From Lachnospiraceae bacterium A2 (GTDB lineage: Bacteria > Bacillota > Clostridia > Lachnospirales > Lachnospiraceae): a stretch of 64,000 nt of DNA. Under the pieces are notes generated by a model. That model saw nothing but the letters and a program-made list of their open reading frames with translations, was not told the origin of the DNA and made no database searches. Positions within the stretch are counted from its first letter, which is position 1, and each line of letters starts with the position of its first letter. Positions 22,966-58,892 of this stretch are shown piece after piece. Where the stretch lies: NCBI GenBank assembly GCA_000403315.2, contig KE159638.1, positions 635,793 through 699,792 of the forward strand, given 5' to 3'. The translations under genes were made by a program, and so were the position numbers.

Positions 22966-23101
22966 CAAGAGTTAGGGCTTGTGCATATTTAACAAAATAG
23001 TATTCGGCGAATTGTATTCTGTGTCAATGGAATTTCCAAAGATTACATGGTAAGATTTAAGATATTAGTCCTGCGGGAGGTTCCGCAGGGCTGGGCTGCC
23101 A

Positions 23102-23237
23102 GTCAAATACCCCGCAGCAAGCTACGGGGTATGACCTGGCTTGTTCTTTCCGCCCCAAGGGGCGGGGTATTTAACCCTCGCGGCATTCGCCAAATATCCG
23201 CGCGAGCGCGGCTGCTTGGCTCATTGCTCGCGGGAAT
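23102..23237 (+). repeat. Dispersed leader element, copy A
   Basis: This 136-bp element has a 5' hairpin block, GTCAAATACCCCG with CGGGGTAT and a CCGCCCCAAGGGGCGG hairpin, followed by a conserved core that runs from CCCTCGCGGCATTCGCC through CCGCGCGAGCGCGG to GGCTCATTGCTCGCGGG. The same core occurs at 33.1, 49.2 and 52.2 kb. Here it ends 27 bases before the start codon of the flavin reductase and lies in the same orientation. A further small hairpin, CCTGCGG/CCGCAGG, precedes it at 23070-23089. ORFs that cross the element are not credible genes. Confidence 0.8.
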
Positions 23238-23264
23238 AAACATGCAGAGAAAAGGAGGGTTTTT

Positions 23265-25313
23265 ATGCCTGCAAAATTTACACATTTATTTTCCCCTGTC
23301 AAAATCGGGAATGTGGAAGTTCCCAACCGGATTGCCATGATGCCTATGGGGGTGTTTTCCCCAAGGATGATGAACGTAAAGACCGGCGCATACACCAAGG
23401 ATGGGGCGGATTATTACATTGCCCGCGCCAAAGGCGGCACGGGCCTGATTGTGACGGGGCTGGTTCCAATTATCCCTATGCCTGCCCTGAACCCCGTCAA
23501 TTACCCGGATGAATACATTTCCGAAATGAAATACCTGATGGAGGGAATCCATGCCCAGGGCTCTAAAATTTTCGTCCAATTGACGGCTATGACAGGGCGC
23601 GCGGCACACCTTGAGAGTGAAAACGACTGGAAGCTGCTCCCTGCCCCGGCCCCAATCCAGAATGTATGGGACCCAACCGTAAAAAACAGGGGGATAACAA
23701 AGGAAGAAATCAAGAAATATGTGGAAAACTTCGCCACTGCCGCGTTCCTTGTGAAAGAAGCAGGCGGAGATGGGGTGGAAATCCATGCCGTCCATGAGGG
23801 CTACTTGTTAGACCAGTTTGCCATTGGGTTTTATAACAAGCGGGAGGACGAATATGGCGGTTCTTTGGAAAACCGCTTACGGTTCCCGAGGGAGATTGTA
23901 GAAGCAATTAAGGAAAAGTGCGGGAAGGATTTCCCGGTGTCCGTCCGCTACAGCGTACGCAGCTATGTGAAGGATTTTAACCGGGGCGCGTTGCCCGGGG
24001 AGGAATTTGAGGAAATGGGGCGTGGCCTGGAAGAAGGGATAGCCGCTGCAAAGCTGTTGGAGGAATATGGCTATGATATGCTCAACTGCGACAATGGCAG
24101 CTATGATTCATGGTTTTGGCCCCATCCCCCGGTTTATATGCCAAAGGCCTGCAACCTGAAAGACGTGGCGGCAGTGAAGAAGGCGGTAAGCATCCCGGTA
24201 GTGTGCGCCGGGCGTTTTGACGACCCGGAACTTGCAGACAAAGCCATTGGGGAAGGCCAAATCGATATGATGGGAATGGGAAGGCCGCTGCTTGCAGACC
24301 CGGATTTAGGGAATAAATTCCGCGAAGGGCGTCTTGCGGACATCCGTCCATGCATTGCCTGCCATCAGGGATGTTTAGGGCGCATTTTCCAGGGAAAAGA
24401 TATTAGCTGCGCCGTGAACCCGGCCTGCGGGCGTGAGGAAAGCTATGCCATTGCCCTGGCAGGAACCAAGAAAAAAATCCTTGTGGCCGGCGGCGGCTTA
24501 GGGGGCATGGAAGCAGCACGGGTCTGCGCGCTCCGGGGCCATTCCGTTGATTTATATGAAAAATCAGAACAGCTTGGCGGCGTGTTTATTGCAGCGGCAG
24601 CGCCGGATTTCAAAGGGGAGGACAGGCAGCTTTTGGAATGGTACAGAAAGCAGATGGCAGACCTTTCCGTAAACGTGCACCTGGGGGCGGAAGCCACAGA
24701 GGAAACGGTACAGGGATATGATGAAATTTTTGTCGCTACCGGGGCACACGAGCGCAGGCTCAATACGCCCGGGTTTGATTCCCCCAATGTTACCTATGCG
24801 GTAGATACCCTGCTCCATACTAAAATCCAGGAGGAAAATGTCCTCGTTATCGGCGGTGGCCTGACAGGCTGTGAAATTGCCTATCTGCTGGCAAAAGGCG
24901 GAAAGAAAGTCACCATTGTGGAACAGGCGGAAACGATCCTCAACGTTTTTGGCCTGTCTGCGGCAAATTATAACATGCTGATGGAGCTGCTTGATTACTA
25001 TAAAGTAAGAATAATCAAAAATGCAGTGGCAGAAAAATATGAAAATGGCATAGTCACTGTTGTGGAAACGGAAAAGAATTACCCCAATGCCGCAAACCGG
25101 GCGAAGCGTATGTTTGTACTGGGTGCACAGGGCATGAAGGTCAGGCATGAAATCCCGGCTGGCCATGTAGTGGTTTCCATTGGGTATGTCCCGGAAACAT
25201 CACTGTATGAAAAGATAAAAGGGGAGCATGTGTACCTGATTGGGGATGCGAAAGAGCCTACGAATATTATGGATGCCATTTGGGCAGCGTATGAAACAGC
25301 AATGAAATTGTAA
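23265..25313 (+). CDS. Old yellow enzyme-type FMN / 4Fe-4S / FAD reductase
   Basis: A 682-residue NAD(P)H-dependent enoate reductase of the 2,4-dienoyl-CoA reductase family, the family that also includes the bile-acid enzymes BaiCD and BaiH. A TIM barrel binding FMN fills about 1-370 (HAVHEGYLLDQF, YGGSLENRLRFP, MMGMGRPLLADPD). The 4Fe-4S cluster is bound by CIACHQGC near residue 362 and the downstream SCAVNPACG. A two-part FAD/NAD domain follows with VAGGGLGGMEAA and VLVIGGGLTGCEIA. AGGAGGG precedes the ATG. It is a single-gene unit behind leader element copy A. The substrate may be an enoate, a dienoyl-CoA or a steroid-like enone; the sequence alone does not decide. Confidence 0.9.
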   Translation: MPAKFTHLFSPVKIGNVEVPNRIAMMPMGVFSPRMMNVKTGAYTKDGADYYIARAKGGTGLIVTGLVPIIPMPALNPVNYPDEYISEMKYLMEGIHAQGSKIFVQLTAMTGRAAHLESENDWKLLPAPAPIQNVWDPTVKNRGITKEEIKKYVENFATAAFLVKEAGGDGVEIHAVHEGYLLDQFAIGFYNKREDEYGGSLENRLRFPREIVEAIKEKCGKDFPVSVRYSVRSYVKDFNRGALPGEEFEEMGRGLEEGIAAAKLLEEYGYDMLNCDNGSYDSWFWPHPPVYMPKACNLKDVAAVKKAVSIPVVCAGRFDDPELADKAIGEGQIDMMGMGRPLLADPDLGNKFREGRLADIRPCIACHQGCLGRIFQGKDISCAVNPACGREESYAIALAGTKKKILVAGGGLGGMEAARVCALRGHSVDLYEKSEQLGGVFIAAAAPDFKGEDRQLLEWYRKQMADLSVNVHLGAEATEETVQGYDEIFVATGAHERRLNTPGFDSPNVTYAVDTLLHTKIQEENVLVIGGGLTGCEIAYLLAKGGKKVTIVEQAETILNVFGLSAANYNMLMELLDYYKVRIIKNAVAEKYENGIVTVVETEKNYPNAANRAKRMFVLGAQGMKVRHEIPAGHVVVSIGYVPETSLYEKIKGEHVYLIGDAKEPTNIMDAIWAAYETAMKL

Positions 25314-33076: not shown

Positions 33077-33137
33077 AATTTTAATCCATTCCTTTCGCTT
33101 TGTTTGGGCGCAAAATATATTGGAAATGTGCCGTTCC

Positions 33138-33208
33138 ATTCCCGCGGGCAATGAGCCAAGCAGCCGCGCTTGCGCGGATATTTGGCGAATGCCGCGAGGG
33201 TATTTGAC
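33138..33208 (-). repeat. Dispersed leader element, copy B
   Basis: This 71-bp short form, on the minus strand, contains GTCAAATACCCTCGCGG, the CCGCGCAAGCGCGG hairpin with one change, and the GGCTCATTGC(C/T)CGCGGGAAT end. It lacks the GGGGCGGGG hairpin block of the longer copies. It lies between the two permease genes and ends about 61 bases before the start codon of the second, in the same orientation as that gene. Confidence 0.75.
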
Positions 33209-33225
33209 TGCTGTTTCCAATTTGC

Positions 33226-34101
33226 TTAATCTTCCTTGCCCAGCTTAATCTGCAGGAACGACATAACGATGGCAATGATGAGTATGGCAACGCCGATCGA
33301 AGCTGCGCCCCCGGCATTGAAATCGTTAAAGGCCTTTTCATACAGGTAGGTATTCATGACGGTGGTCGCCCGCCCAGGCCCCCCTGCAGTCAGGAGCTTT
33401 ACCAGATCAAAGGTTTTTAAGGAGCCTACAATCCCAAGTACAAGCAGCAGGTTTGTGGTGCTTTTTAGCATGGGGAATGTGATGGATACGGTGGTTCTCC
33501 AAAACCCTGCCCCGTCAATTTTTGCCGCCTCATACACATCGTCCGGCAGGGCCATAAGGCCGGCGTAATATGTTATCATGGAAAAGCCCATCCACTGGAA
33601 GATGTTTACGGCAATGACGGAAACCAACGCGATTTTTTGGTCCCCCAGCCAGCTCATGGCAAGGGCGTCCAGGTGGATTGCCCGCAGGAACTGGTTCAGC
33701 GCCCCGTTGGTGGGATCCATGATAATTTTGAAAATAGCGGTGATAATGGATGTTGCCATGGCAATCGGCATGAAGTAGATTGCCTTAAACAGGTTTGAGC
33801 CCGGCAGCTTCTTTTTCAGCAGCAGCGCGAGGAAAAAACCAAGGCCTGCCTGTATGAATACCGTGCCGATAAAGAACAGGACATTGTTTGTCACGGCTGT
33901 CCAGAATACCGGGTCTGCCAGCATTTTGGCGTAATTCTGGAACCCAACAATTTTGTAAATGTCCGACATCCCATCCCAGTCTGTGAAGCTTACGGCTACT
34001 GTATTGATAATGCAGTAGTACACCAGTGAAAAAGACAGGACCATAAGGGGAAGGATGTAAAGATATGCCTTCCAGTTATTTTTTTTACCCAATTTATTCA
34101 T
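33226..34101 (-). CDS. Sugar ABC transporter permease (MalF-like)
   Basis: A 291-residue inner-membrane permease with six membrane segments, starting YLYILPLMVLSFSLVYYCI. The EAA loop reads DDVYEAAKIDGAGFWRTTVSITFPML. AGGAGGTG stands 5-6 bases before the ATG at 34101, an optimal site; the frame runs further to 34143 without support. It forms the transport channel with the MalG-like protein. It lies 72 bases after the response regulator gene, so the regulatory and transport genes probably form one long minus-strand unit. Confidence 0.93.
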   Translation of the reverse strand: MNKLGKKNNWKAYLYILPLMVLSFSLVYYCIINTVAVSFTDWDGMSDIYKIVGFQNYAKMLADPVFWTAVTNNVLFFIGTVFIQAGLGFFLALLLKKKLPGSNLFKAIYFMPIAMATSIITAIFKIIMDPTNGALNQFLRAIHLDALAMSWLGDQKIALVSVIAVNIFQWMGFSMITYYAGLMALPDDVYEAAKIDGAGFWRTTVSITFPMLKSTTNLLLVLGIVGSLKTFDLVKLLTAGGPGRATTVMNTYLYEKAFNDFNAGGAASIGVAILIIAIVMSFLQIKLGKED

Positions 34102-49241: not shown

Positions 49242-49397
49242 AGTCAAATACCCTGCAGCAAGCTACGGGGCATGGCCTTGCTTGTTCTTTCCGCCCCAAG
49301 GGGCGGGGTATTTGCACCCGCAGGGCACTTACCCTCGCGGCATTCGCCAAATATCCGCGCGAGCGCGGCTGCTTGGCTCATTGCTCGCGGGAATAAA
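49242..49397 (+). repeat. Dispersed leader element, copy C
   Basis: This 156-bp long form has GTCAAATACCCTGC, AGCTACGGGGCATG, CCGCCCCAAGGGGCGG and an extra CACCCGCAGGGCACTT, followed by the conserved core from CCCTCGCGGCATTCGCC to GGCTCATTGCTCGCGGG. It ends about 21-24 bases before the ATG at 49418, same orientation as the gene. It agrees with copy A almost throughout. Confidence 0.8.
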
Positions 49398-49417: not shown

Positions 49418-49987
49418 ATGGTAGGAGCTATTGGAGCAACCAGCGGTTACAATTATGGAAATTACAGTACTTATGGCAGTTCCCAGGGAATAAGCGCATC
49501 CGGCAGGGATGGCGGGGAACAGGACGCCAGGGCTGGCAGGATAGGAGGAGCCCATGGGGACAAGGCTGGCAGGGCCTATGGAGCCGATGGGGTCTATTGG
49601 GAAAGGGAAAGCAAGGACGGTTCCGTGAAAAAGGTTGGGGAACGCTGCCAGACCTGTGCGGAACGGAAATATCAGGACGGTTCTGATGAAAATGTTTCCT
49701 TTAAGGCGGCAGCCCATATTTCCCCGGAAGCAGCAGGCAGCGCAGTGCGCGCCCATGAAGGGGAGCATGTGTCCAATGCCTATACAAAGGCGGCAAAGAA
49801 TGATGGGAAGGTTGTGTCAGCATCCGTCAGCATCCATACTTCTGTCTGCCCGGAATGTGGCAGGACGTATGTATCGGGGGGAACCACATCCACCCGGATT
49901 AAATACCCGGCTGACCCTTATGAAAAGAGCAAAAAGGTGCTTGGGGAGGAAGAAGCCAAAGGGAAAAATATTGATTATGCAGCTTAA
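49418..49987 (+). CDS. SprA-related putative zinc metalloprotease
   Basis: A 189-residue protein with a Gly/Tyr/Ser-rich N-terminus (about 1-70) and a compact C-terminal part. HEGEH in AVRAHEGEHVSNAY is an HExxH zinc-protease motif. Two Cys pairs, CQTC and CPEC, flank it, as in SprA-related and CJM1_0395-type proteins. The pairs may bind a second metal. There is no signal peptide. GAATGAGGTG precedes the ATG. The gene lies directly behind leader element copy C and 15 bases before a PepSY protein gene, probably one transcript. Protease activity is inferred from the motif only. Confidence 0.8.
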   Translation: MVGAIGATSGYNYGNYSTYGSSQGISASGRDGGEQDARAGRIGGAHGDKAGRAYGADGVYWERESKDGSVKKVGERCQTCAERKYQDGSDENVSFKAAAHISPEAAGSAVRAHEGEHVSNAYTKAAKNDGKVVSASVSIHTSVCPECGRTYVSGGTTSTRIKYPADPYEKSKKVLGEEEAKGKNIDYAA

Positions 49988-50852: not shown

Positions 50853-51611
50853 ATGGAACGGACATCAGCAGAATTAAAAAGACTGGCAAGGGAGAAACTG
50901 GCAGGCCATTGGGGGCTGGTAATTGGGGCAATATTGCTGCAGGCTCTGATCGTGGTGGCCATTTTGCTGCCTTTTGAGTTCCTGTTCATTTTCAGCGGCG
51001 GCGGGATGGTGCAGTTTGTTGCCTATCTGGTTGCGGCAATGATCCTGGGGATTATATCCACAATTATGCAGTGTGGGATTACCCGGATGAGGCTGTGCTT
51101 TGCAAGGGGGCAGCAGGCGGGAATCGGCATGATGTTTGGGGAATTTACCAAAAGGCCAGACCGCTATATTGTGGGCACATTACTGATGTTTGGGATTGAG
51201 CTGGCCTGCCTGCTGCCGGGCAGCCTCTGCTGGCTGGTGGGGGTCCTGCAAGGCCGGATGCTTGCCAATGTCATTGGGGCTGCCCTGTATTTGGCAGGGG
51301 CAGTGGTGATGGTAGTAATCTTCCTGCGCTATGGGCTTGTATTTTTCCTGCTGGTGGACGATCCCCAGATGGGAGCCTTAGAGGCTTTCCGGGAAAGCGC
51401 CCGCCTGATGGATGGAAGGAAAGGGCGGCTGTTTTATATAGGCTTAAGCTTTATCGGCATGTATCTTCTTGGGGTGTGTTCCTGCGGCCTTGGGATGCTT
51501 TGGGTAACGCCTTATACGGAACAGACCCTGGTTAGCTTTTACCTGGATACCATAGGGGAATTGGATAGGATGCAGAAAGAAACCTATGCAGGGGAAGGGA
51601 TGCCATTTTAA
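50853..51611 (+). CDS. DUF975 family membrane protein
   Basis: A 252-residue protein with about five or six membrane segments. The cytosolic N-terminus RTSAELKRLAREKLAGHWGLVIGAILL is the typical DUF975 start. Later family features are FAVxDDPQMGALEAFRESARLMDGRKG-like (here LVDDPQMGALEAFRESARLM) and LSFIGMYLLGVCSCGLGMLWVTPYTEQT. The function of the family is unknown. A strong terminator follows 28 bases after the stop codon, so this is the last gene of the unit that starts at 49418. Confidence 0.9.
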   Translation: MERTSAELKRLAREKLAGHWGLVIGAILLQALIVVAILLPFEFLFIFSGGGMVQFVAYLVAAMILGIISTIMQCGITRMRLCFARGQQAGIGMMFGEFTKRPDRYIVGTLLMFGIELACLLPGSLCWLVGVLQGRMLANVIGAALYLAGAVVMVVIFLRYGLVFFLLVDDPQMGALEAFRESARLMDGRKGRLFYIGLSFIGMYLLGVCSCGLGMLWVTPYTEQTLVSFYLDTIGELDRMQKETYAGEGMPF

Positions 51612-52178: not shown

Positions 52179-52203
52179 TTTAATCACGTCCTTTCTAAAT
52201 TTA

Positions 52204-52300
52204 TTTCCGCGAGCAATGAGCCAAGCAGCCGCGCTCGCGCGGATAGTTGGCGAATGCCGCGAGGGTCGAATACCCCGCCCCAAGGGTCGGGGTATTTGAC
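52204..52300 (-). repeat. Dispersed leader element, copy D
   Basis: This 97-bp intermediate form is on the minus strand: GTCAAATACCCCGACCC, TTGGGGCGGGGTATTCGAC, then the core CCCTCGCGGCATTCGCC, CCGCGCGAGCGCGG and GGCTCATTGCTCGCGG. It differs from copies A and C by isolated substitutions only (for example AACTATCC for AAATATCC). It lies between a promoter at 52310-52339 and the short ORF at 52178, hence in the transcribed leader. Confidence 0.8.
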
Positions 52301-52309
52301 TTTTCATTT

Positions 52310-52425: not shown

Positions 52426-52593
52426 CCTAGAGCGTGTCTGAAAATTCATTCCTACAATTTTGCTCCCCATTTTACACCGGATTCTATGCTGAATTTCGTC
52501 AATGTAGCCCACTACACCTCCCAAATCCAGCATAAAATCTGATGCAAACTGGGACGCAATCTTGCAGAAAGCAATTTTCAGACACGCTCTAGG
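52426..52593. mobile_element. 168-bp MITE with perfect 21-bp inverted ends
   Basis: The ends CCTAGAGCGTGTCTGAAAA (from 52426) and its exact reverse complement (to 52593) match over 21 bases. Inside are further inverted pairs, GATTCTATGCTGAATTT with AAATCCAGCATAAAATC (15 of 17) and TGTAG with CTACA around CCCA, so the whole element folds into one long hairpin. It has no coding capacity. Degenerate relatives are at 58848 and 61932. No clear target duplication is visible. Confidence 0.8.
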
Positions 52594-52653: not shown

Positions 52654-53763
52654 CTAAATACAGTCTTCCACCGCCCAAAGGAACATCTCATATTCCTTCC
52701 GGCAGCTTGGATCCCCATTCCGCATATCGAATTTATCCGAAATCTCCCGGGCTTCCCTGCCGAAGTATTCCGCCAGTTCTTTTGTCTGGTAATGAGCATC
52801 TTCCCGCTGCCAGGGCTGGTTGCCCGGTAAAGAGAGCCGGACCGTTTCCTTTCCCTGTTTCAGCAGGCTCCGCATCATAATTTCAGCGCCAATGGAAAAT
52901 TCCATTTTGTATAGGGGCGTCGTCCCTAAAACCTCATGGGGGGCTTCTTTCTGGAAAAAACTCCAGGCAGAATTCAAATCTGTCTGCACAAGATAGACAA
53001 TGGTATCGGAAAAATAGGGGGTGTGCATCCGGTATTTTTTGCATATCTGGCGTAACAGCCGGTAATAGGGGGCGGCATGTACGGGATCCCGCCTGCGGAC
53101 GGCATAATAGTAAAGGAGCCGCCCGTATTCATAAGCCAGCCTTTGGCTCTGGGGAAAATGCTTTTCCAGCAGCTTTGTAGTTTTTTCCAAGGTTTCTAAG
53201 TCATCATACCAACATGCCACCTCCCCAATGAAATCCAAGGTGTAAGAATCCCTGTAGTGGTCGGCACGGCAGAGGGCCTTGAAATCTTTTACATACTGCA
53301 TGACCTGTTCCTTGCTGCCGGCCTGCCAGTACAGCCGTGCAGATGCTATGTAGTAATTGTACAGGGGGTATCCATGCATTAGGCAGAACTCCTTGTACTT
53401 TTCCAAATATTTTTCCATGTCCCCAATGGGTATCTGGTAGAAAAAATCAGCGCAGCAGACCATTTCTGAGAAAATATACATTACAGCCTCAGCTGCCGCC
53501 TCATGGCTGCTCCCTGGCAGCCGGATGCCAGGGTTTTCTTCATAAAGAGCCAGCAGTTCCGGGAAAATCAGGTAGAGGTGGAACAAAAAGCTGCCGTTTT
53601 CATCCTCACTGCATTCATTGGCATAGGCACAGCGGAAATACAGCATATAGCTGCTGTCATTGGCTAAGTCCGCTTGCCGGATTGCCTCCCGGATGCCGGA
53701 AAGCCGCGCTTCCCCGGGATTTAATTTTTGGTATTCCTCAATCAGTTCTTTGGGCTGGAACAT
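52654..53763 (-). CDS. Unknown helical repeat (TPR-like) protein
   Basis: A 369-residue cytosolic protein I cannot name. It is almost wholly helical, with Tyr/Leu/Ala-rich units such as YNYYIASARLYWQAGSKEQVMQYV, LAYEYGRLLYYYAVRRRDPVHAAPYYRLL and CWYDDLETLEKTTKLLEKHF, in the style of tetratricopeptide repeats. No enzyme motif or membrane segment is visible. GGGAAAAC precedes the ATG (weak). It lies upstream of the MITE and just downstream (14 bases) of a small membrane protein gene with which it is probably co-transcribed. Confidence 0.72.
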   Translation of the reverse strand: MFQPKELIEEYQKLNPGEARLSGIREAIRQADLANDSSYMLYFRCAYANECSEDENGSFLFHLYLIFPELLALYEENPGIRLPGSSHEAAAEAVMYIFSEMVCCADFFYQIPIGDMEKYLEKYKEFCLMHGYPLYNYYIASARLYWQAGSKEQVMQYVKDFKALCRADHYRDSYTLDFIGEVACWYDDLETLEKTTKLLEKHFPQSQRLAYEYGRLLYYYAVRRRDPVHAAPYYRLLRQICKKYRMHTPYFSDTIVYLVQTDLNSAWSFFQKEAPHEVLGTTPLYKMEFSIGAEIMMRSLLKQGKETVRLSLPGNQPWQREDAHYQTKELAEYFGREAREISDKFDMRNGDPSCRKEYEMFLWAVEDCI

Positions 53764-56535: not shown

Positions 56536-56556
56536 AGAAGTGTCAAATAAATAGTG

Positions 56557-56713
56557 TTCTTCAGGGCAGGGTGACTTTTTCTGATAAGCTCATAGGGGCT
56601 TGCAGGAAGGAATTCCCGACCGACGGTGATACCCAATGGGGCAAGTCCGTGAGCCGTATAGCATGATTTGGTGAGAATCCAAAACCGACAGTACAGTCTG
56701 GATGGGAGAAGAA
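56557..56713 (+). ncRNA. FMN riboswitch (RFN element)
   Basis: All conserved RFN blocks are visible in order: AGGGCAGGGTGA, AATTCCCGACCGACGGTGAT, AGTCCGTGAGCC, TGATTTGGTGAGAATCCAAA, ACCGACAGTACAGTCTGGAT and GGGAGAAGA. TTCTTC at 56557 pairs with GAAGAA at 56708 as the closing P1 stem. A terminator follows at 56770, so FMN binding probably stops transcription before ribU and the rib genes. Confidence 0.95.
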
Positions 56714-56769
56714 GCATCATGGTTATTAATGATATGTAGGATGTATGCAGGAGATGCATATGTTTTCAT

Positions 56770-56838: not shown

Positions 56839-57504
56839 ATGAGTACAAGAAATGCCACATCAGCAAAACCAACAAAACAGAGGGATGTATGGAAAATGAC
56901 TATGACAGCCATGCTTTCCGCCATAGCCTTCGTGCTGATGTTCTTTGAATTTTCCGTCCCCATTATGCCCTCTTTCATTAAAATGGACTTATCAGAACTT
57001 CCGGCGCTGATTGGGGCGTTTGCCATGGGGCCAGTCAGCGGGGCTATGGTTTGCCTGGTCAAGAACCTGCTCCATCTGTTTATGACAACTACTGGGGGCG
57101 TAGGGGAACTGTCTAATTTTCTGCTGGGGGCAGCCTTTGTAGTCCCGGCAGGCCTGGTTTACCAGAGATGGAAGGGCAGGAAAAGCGCTGTTGCCGGAGC
57201 CTTGGCAGGGGCGGTCCTGATGGCGTCTATCAGCATTGTTTCCAATTATTTTATCGTTTACCCTGTATATTACAATTTTATGCCAAAAGAAGCCATCCTC
57301 GCCGCATACCAGATGATTTTCCCAAAAGTGGAAAATATCCTGCAATGCCTGATTGTGTTTAACGCCCCCTTCACTTTTGCCAAGGGCGTGTGCAGCGTAG
57401 CAATTACAATGCTGGTTTACAAGCCGCTGTCCCCGTTGCTGAAAGGGAATTACAGAAGTGCAAAAACCGTGCAGAAAAATACAGGGAAGGGCTATCAGGC
57501 GTAG
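56839..57504 (+). CDS. ribU: Riboflavin ECF transporter S component
   Basis: A 221-residue membrane protein that binds riboflavin outside and works with the shared EcfAAT energising module. Family features are MLSAIAFVLMFFEFSVPIMPSFIKMDLSELPALIGAF in the first segments, and then FLMT-type loops with LKNLLHLFMTTTGGVGELSNFLLGAAF, and FNAPFTFAKGVCSV near the end. Six membrane segments. AAAAGGAGTG precedes the ATG. It is the first gene behind the FMN riboswitch and its terminator, the usual regulation of ribU. ribD follows after 45 bases. Confidence 0.94.
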   Translation: MSTRNATSAKPTKQRDVWKMTMTAMLSAIAFVLMFFEFSVPIMPSFIKMDLSELPALIGAFAMGPVSGAMVCLVKNLLHLFMTTTGGVGELSNFLLGAAFVVPAGLVYQRWKGRKSAVAGALAGAVLMASISIVSNYFIVYPVYYNFMPKEAILAAYQMIFPKVENILQCLIVFNAPFTFAKGVCSVAITMLVYKPLSPLLKGNYRSAKTVQKNTGKGYQA

Positions 57505-58821: not shown

Positions 58822-58847
58822 GCCCTCCAGGGGAAATATAAGAATGA

Positions 58848-58892
58848 TAGAGCGTATCTGAAAATTTTAGGAATAAATTTTCAGGCATGCCA
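58848..58892. repeat. Degenerate MITE relative, short
   Basis: TAGAGCGTATCTGAAAATTT and AAATTTTCAGGCATGCC are separated by 7-8 bases, as if the middle of the 52426 element had been lost. It fills the gap between ribD and ribE. Confidence 0.65.

Follow-up and report, generated by a model that had tools for sequence, protein, structure and literature searches.

The dispersed repeat analysed here, which occurs four times in a 64,000-nt stretch of the genome of Lachnospiraceae bacterium A2 (the window), is best explained as a family of short mobile elements that encode no transposase and carry a hairpin close to either end, similar to palindrome-associated transposable elements (PATEs) or to large REPs; we put the probability of this reading at roughly two in three. 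The element has spread to dozens of sites in the A2 genome and occurs across the Lachnospiraceae. Compensatory change preserves its 3′ hairpin as the stem sequence drifts, and deletion between short direct repeats can remove parts of the element, the 5′ hairpin among them. Copies for the most part show no regard for the direction of genes, so the repeat is probably a piece of jumping DNA and not a new gene switch. A repeat of this abundance, present in many genomes of a major gut-bacterial family, with copies inside core operons and at least one protein end changed (that of a HAD-LuxS fusion), could be a source of error in annotation, strain typing and RNA-motif searches. Its copies also form a natural experiment, both on the spread of a hairpin element that lacks a transposase and on whether a preference for certain insertion sites is enough to yield an apparent rule of “always in front of a gene”.

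Architecture and distribution of the element

The initial annotation described a shared core of about 62 bases. This core is indeed common to the four copies in the window, but the real unit is longer and comprises two hairpins. In an alignment of 32 full A2 copies the unit has sharp ends and runs from AGTCAAATACC through a 5′ hairpin, sometimes an extra GCACCCGCAGGGCACTT piece, and a 3′ hairpin to GCGGGAATAAA, with a length of mostly about 102, 140 or 156 nt; on the bottom strand it starts TCCCGCG and ends TTTGACT. Terminal inverted repeats are absent, AGTCAAATACC and GCGGGAATAAA not being inverted repeats of each other in this alignment, and a palindrome lies near each end. Both palindromes fold as DNA; pair counts were made for the 3′ hairpin, and the 5′ hairpin (GTCAAATACCCC ... 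GGGGTATTTGAC, with inner parts present or absent) is defined by folding and alignment. The variable 5′ module recognized at the outset is this second hairpin. Among 18 variable-middle copies in three genomes (G001, G015 and G002), the 5′ start is kept in nearly all and the 3′ end CTCGCGGGAATAAA in 15, at two mismatches or fewer. A second small repeat, with GTGCCACTGGCACACAGCACC, was seen in six loci (L201, L230, L259, L373, L374 and L387), and in the first three of these it sits inside the core hairpin of the element.

All four copies first reported in the window were recovered at their positions and on their strands. The 3′ core pattern CTTGGCTCATTGCYCGCGG has exactly four matches in the window at up to three mismatches, compared with a mean of 0.02 in shuffled windows, none of 100 of which reached four. 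Each copy starts with AGTCAAATACC; the terminal sequence is (G/A)AATAAA in all but copy 2. Copy 1 is the full 140-nt form (23101–23240, plus strand, by covariance model), with its 5′ hairpin module, GTCAAATACCCC ... GGGGTATTT around a CCGCCCCAAGGGGCGG hairpin, at approximately 23102–23171 and its 3′ core hairpin at 23177–23240, both on the plus strand. The latter has a GCGAGC loop, where many other copies have GCAAGC, and a terminal GGGAATAAA. Copy 2 is a short form of about 75 nt on the minus strand that lacks the 5′ hairpin module; the covariance-model match spans 33135–33241, and the element proper lies at about 33135–33209 and has a mutated 3′ end, GAATGGA. Copy 3 (49242–49397, plus strand, model extent) is a 156-nt form with the extra GCACCCGCAGGGCACTT piece, and copy 4 (52200–52301, minus strand, model extent) is a 102-nt form.

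The description of these copies as lying before a start codon in the orientation of the gene holds for the first three, whereas for copy 4 it depends on the status of a small ORF. The 3′ end of copy 1 is 24 nt from the start, at 23265, of a gene originally called a flavin reductase, a name that we correct to OYE-type NADH:flavin oxidoreductase (PF00724). Copy 2 lies within an operon, directly 5′ of an ABC permease gene as called, with 58 nt between them. The 3′ end of copy 3 is 20 nt from the start of a gene (49418–49987, plus strand) for a 189-aa protein whose HExxH motif reads HEGEH and which has no Pfam or NCBIfam match. Copy 4 occupies the gap between two convergent genes called by a hexamer-based gene finder (50853–51611, plus strand, and 52654–53763, minus strand). 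A gene start lies ahead of it only if the adjacent 36-codon ORF is real, and this ORF is neither among the genes called nor matched by any NCBIfam model.

The genome-wide search for the core that had been proposed placed the element in dozens of places in A2 and also in relatives. With a covariance model built from 32 A2 copies, 88 matches at E ≤ 0.01 were obtained across the 5.24-Mb A2 genome, from the 150 of 2606 first-look candidates that were scored; a DNA search gave 40 matches among the 40 of 84 candidates scored. When a 140-nt consensus was compared with 61 genomes, 28 matched: 25 of the 29 genomes of the genus (A2 included), two belonging to other genera in the family, and a weak, more distant match. 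A search of GTDB species genomes with the last 25 bases as the pattern found at least 114 stretches, of which 80 loci were read. Their titles name mostly Lachnospiraceae or genera that we take to belong there, the hosts including Blautia parvula, Acetatifactor muris, Parablautia intestinalis, Hungatella effluvii, Eisenbergiella porci and Muricomes intestini, all presumably Lachnospiraceae. Plasmid and phage collections yielded no match to the element. Two loci (L220 and L240) lie on contigs labelled Gastranaerophilales and Muribaculaceae; mis-binned contigs are a likelier explanation for these than a wider host range.

Insertion sites and putative target

Evidence for mobility came from three operon junctions that are filled in A2 and empty in all relatives read: luxS-mtn (24 of 24), argR-recN (23 of 23) and pseudouridine synthase-ligA (24 of 24). 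A motif check at the three junctions found the core and the 5′ end in the A2 copy only. The 24 luxS relatives comprise 23 distinct junction sequences, two being identical; one further locus (L340) gave no usable junction. With precise insertion at junctions that are filled here and empty in relatives, the element is mobile. An inserted copy has also rewritten the C-terminus of the HAD-LuxS fusion (L127 3282–4499, on A2 genome contig C1), which ends ...HLVYPEPNTSR in A2, whereas the relatives stop shortly past HL.YP.

Additional evidence came from one site shared by three relatives. Genome G017 carries a 134-nt copy there, G028 the same copy minus 81 nt, and G024 is empty; flank identity to G017 is 98–99% for G028 and 84–89% for G024. 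The 81 nt missing from G028 comprise the 5′ module together with the first core arm, and lie between TCAAATA repeats. The three states of this site thus show insertion without duplication, and partial loss between the TCAAATA repeats. No target-site duplication is apparent between filled G017 and empty G024, the one pair close enough to judge, and the luxS-mtn junction agrees. A TA target duplication was considered and rejected, since TA is found on both sides at G017 but not at the luxS copy, and no shared TA or other direct repeats were seen by eye in the flanks of 79 A2 copies. As a separate observation, G017 and G028 are classed as two species, yet are at least 99.6% identical over several kilobases at two loci.

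The 3′ flanks of empty sites bear on the target. TAAA (TTTA on the other strand) is already present in G024. At luxS, TTATT is found in 6 of the 24 empty relatives, in 5 of them as GAATAA where the A2 copy ends GGGAATAAA, and the other 19 relatives have no GAATAA at the site; at argR-recN, the empty site of G023 has ATAAA (TTTAT) at a similar distance from the start. In all these comparisons the flanks have diverged by 11–28%, and the ligA junction is uninformative. Because the flank motif is already present in empty sites, it seems to belong to the target, as TTTA(T) on the other strand, and not to the element; from these few, diverged sites, TTTAT is the putative target. At copy 1 the putative target pentamer, assigned from the empty sites and the IS200 target described next, is at 23236–23240 on the minus strand (ATAAA on the plus strand), adjoining the element.

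An IS200 of the same genus inserts beside this same pentamer. Its filled site in G028, CATTTTAT|element|TTCTGC, compared with the empty site CATTTTATTTCTGC in G017, gives TTTAT. This IS200 copy, at about 1277700–1278350 of G028 contig C1 (L342 713–1349), is absent from G017 (L346), where the flanks are more than 99% identical, and its ends are TGTCTG and TTCAG. Group A IStrons are described, in the excerpted text of PMC4227781, as inserting after TTGAT, ATTAT or TTTAT. As far as that text extends, the element is like the genus IS200 and these IStrons in its putative insertion beside TTTAT without duplication. The ends differ: the IS200 starts TGTCTGTATAATGGGG and ends TCAG, and the element starts TCCCGCG and ends TTTGACT. 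From the common TTTAT, the mobiliser is probably an HUH transposase that acts in trans. On the strand opposite to that displayed, the unit would lie directly 3′ of TTTAT and start with TCCCGCG. By analogy with IS200/IS605 elements, a Y1-type HUH transposase provided in trans would fold the single strand, cleave it at TTTAT and transfer the unit.

Hairpin constraint and orientation relative to genes

An explanation of another kind is that the repeat is a cis-acting leader RNA or a protein-binding mRNA element, duplicated from one gene to the next in the manner of a regulatory cassette; we consider this unlikely. In its favour is the strong compensatory change in the core hairpin, which emerged from the covariance check suggested in the initial annotation. 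In an alignment of 61 cores from many species (of 94 listed, near-identical A2-genome copies and two 55-nt forms being omitted), the 20 pairs of the 3′ hairpin are paired in 93.7% of cells, and there are 109 double-change cells, against a background of 32.3 for shuffles and 5–21 for slid controls. Variation is free in the inner stem, and the flanking strands are almost fixed. While these data demonstrate that the structure of the element is under constraint, DNA folding fits them equally well. A recount of stem mismatches found 30 G-T (G-U) and 30 A-C in 106 distinct 64-nt cores, shorter cores being omitted, and 13 and 15, respectively, in 32 representatives. An excess of G-U, suggested by eye from the alignment with its shorter inner stems and shifted register, was rejected on this recount. 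Since G-U is as frequent as A-C, there is no sign that selection sees the RNA of one strand, which counts against a leader RNA. Nor does any Rfam family match the element at gathering scores in the window, where the only such match is an unrelated FMN riboswitch; below gathering scores, mir-30 and sX7 matches fall in two copy loci.

The initial annotation also claimed that the element is always upstream of a start codon and points at the gene; this rule did not survive a genome-wide tabulation. Genes were called with the home-made hexamer-based finder in 58 fetched stretches and the window, and are not an annotation; 9 of the 88 A2 model matches, scoring below 32.3 bits, were left out. The 79 A2 copies placed are 28 tandem in the same direction, 19 tandem in the opposite direction (two-sided P=0.24), 14 divergent, 14 convergent and 4 intragenic. 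The 80 loci in other genomes are 23 tandem-same, 23 tandem-opposite, 16 divergent, 4 convergent, 2 intragenic (L224 and L234) and 12 with an incomplete neighbourhood; L224 and L230, the latter on a contig too short for placement, also face a start by eye. Pooled tandem copies number 51 same and 42 opposite (P=0.41), so there is no general orientation rule and no consistent placement in sense, and the convergent and intragenic copies likewise argue against a leader RNA.

A smaller bias remains by ribosome-binding sites, and this is the second point in favour of a leader RNA. Of the copies with an end no more than 35 nt from a start codon, 30 present their 3′ end to the gene and 6 their 5′ end (P=0.00007; 14 versus 2 in A2 and 16 versus 4 in other genomes), or 18 versus 4 when only full-length copies are counted (P=0.004). 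Codirectional 3′ ends lie 10–40 nt before a start in 28 of 81 cases, 18 of them at 20–30 nt. Within 35 nt of a stop codon, the 5′ end follows the stop 16 times and the 3′ end faces it 7 times among 67 A2 copies, the end-distance test omitting 12 of the 79 (4 intragenic and 8 without a recognisable 3′ end); the corresponding counts in other genomes are 13 and 7.

The preferred reading, a mobile element with a putative TTTAT target, could account for part of this pattern. TTTAT on the template strand would be ATAAA on the coding strand, which is expected to be common in A-rich leaders and around TAA stops. Combined with loss of genic insertions, targeting of ATAAA would place many of the copies, in coding orientation, immediately behind a stop codon or ahead of an SD. 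Copies are intragenic in 4 of 79 cases, compared with 405 of 759 AATAAA sites in the same stretches. Intergenic AATAAA sites near starts face the gene with their 3′ side 78 times and with their 5′ side 36 times, giving an expected 3′-side share of 68%; the share expected from ATAAA is 57.5% and from TAAA 54%. The observed share of 83% (30 of 36) exceeds each of these (P=0.035, P=0.0009 and P=0.0003, respectively). Asymmetry of the target motif therefore explains part of the start-side bias, not all of it, and the part left over, which a leader RNA would accommodate, may reflect selection or function. Loss of antisense copies through masking of the start site was rejected as a source of the bias: in 27 cases, mean predicted accessibility of the start is 0.57 in sense and 0.56 when flipped, and it is higher in sense in 15 (P=0.95). 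The equal accessibility is a further point against a leader RNA.

The genes downstream had been described as unrelated, and they are, which again does not favour a leader RNA. A Pfam scan covered ten of the proteins encoded downstream of the 18 start-adjacent copies listed; nine match diverse families: NAD-dependent DNA ligase, RecN/SMC (two), HisG, nucleosidase, MFS transporter, ArsR-type regulator, ABC permease and OYE oxidoreductase. The tenth has no match. An RNA function of the element is not supported. Of the possibilities raised initially (an unrecognised leader RNA, a protein-binding mRNA element or a mobile 5′-UTR cassette), the mobile cassette comes closest, without the restriction to 5′ UTRs.

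Candidate mobilisers and related repeat families

The search for a mobiliser covered the genus and its Y1 transposases. No full-length element with these ends was found, the core was near none of the 31 Y1-transposase loci read, and no IS608-style guide sequence was seen by eye beside the hairpins. Matches to PF01797 (Y1) at E ≤ 0.001 are present in 15 of the 25 element-bearing genomes of the genus and in three of the four element-free ones. The other ten element-bearing genomes, including the copy-rich G002 and G012, have no such match, and the resident IS200 has the putative target in common with the element and different end sequences. Because several copy-rich genomes lack a Y1 transposase, a more speculative and unlikely proposal is that an as yet unrecognised enzyme moves this Lachnospiraceae-wide element. 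The same proposal holds that sense copies directly 5′ of ribosome-binding sites in core operons (recN, ligA, smc and hisG) are kept for an effect on the mRNA, given that the orientation bias exceeds what the target motif predicts.

The closest parallels for a transposase-free mobile element are the PATEs of Haloquadratum walsbyi, which the excerpts of PMC3119063 describe as non-coding, present in many copies and without terminal inverted repeats, with near-terminal palindromes and no target duplication. The sections available from PMC3119063 and PMC7290912 also report deletion of the PATE core between direct repeats, and palindromes struck by other small repeats. Judged against these partial sources, the likeness is extensive: the element lacks terminal inverted repeats and target duplication, has near-terminal palindromes, is too short to code and is present in many copies, its core has been deleted between direct repeats, and the GTGCCACTGGCACACAGCACC piece lies inside the core in three loci. 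PATE ends match those of IS605-type transposons in H. walsbyi (PMC3119063, in excerpt), whereas no full IS605-type element with matching ends was found here. A further difference from PATEs, as far as the excerpts describe them, is that here the stem sequence drifts with compensation across a whole bacterial family. Since the link to IS605-type ends was not found, the element is better said to work like a PATE than to be one.

A REP family that relies on a RAYT (REP-associated tyrosine transposase) of its own is also an unlikely reading, even though the repeat is palindromic, high-copy and mostly extragenic and has no visible target-site duplication. According to the portion of PMC3733652 consulted, GTAG and CGTC REPs are RAYT-associated or orphan, and one class, the CGTC REPs, has no dedicated transposase, which also favours this explanation. 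The element shares with these REPs, as that portion presents them, the character of an extragenic palindromic repeat, but differs in its length (102–156 nt, compared with 20–40 bp for REPs), in its end tags, which are neither GTAG nor CGTC, and in its two-hairpin make-up; the core is moreover absent from all 31 Y1 loci read. The repeat is very improbable as a classical MITE mobilised by a DDE transposase, which would have terminal inverted repeats and a target duplication: high copy number, lack of coding capacity and insertions that differ among relatives would fit, but the ends AGTCAAATACC and GCGGGAATAAA are not inverted repeats, the G017/G024 site has no duplication, and the flanks of the 79 copies share no direct repeats by eye.

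Literature searches found no paper describing the repeat and none with the core words in a relevant context. BOX, RUP and ERIC elements are dispersed, modular, hairpin-forming intergenic repeats, and the likeness of the element to them is one of general description rather than of compared sequences.

Three minor observations concern the surroundings of the copies. The repeat TGGCTCTAT...AAAATGGGGAAAC lies directly beside three A2 copies, in their left flanks (C1:357138, C1:3096431 and C6:160878). The FMN riboswitch of the window is at 56553–56717 on the plus strand (91.8 bits), 5′ of a gene at 56896. A dispersed word, TTTCAGACACGCTCTAG, matches the window three times, once with two mismatches (52427–52443, 52576–52592 and 58847–58863; 0.17 expected), and is also present in the flanks of some A2 copies.
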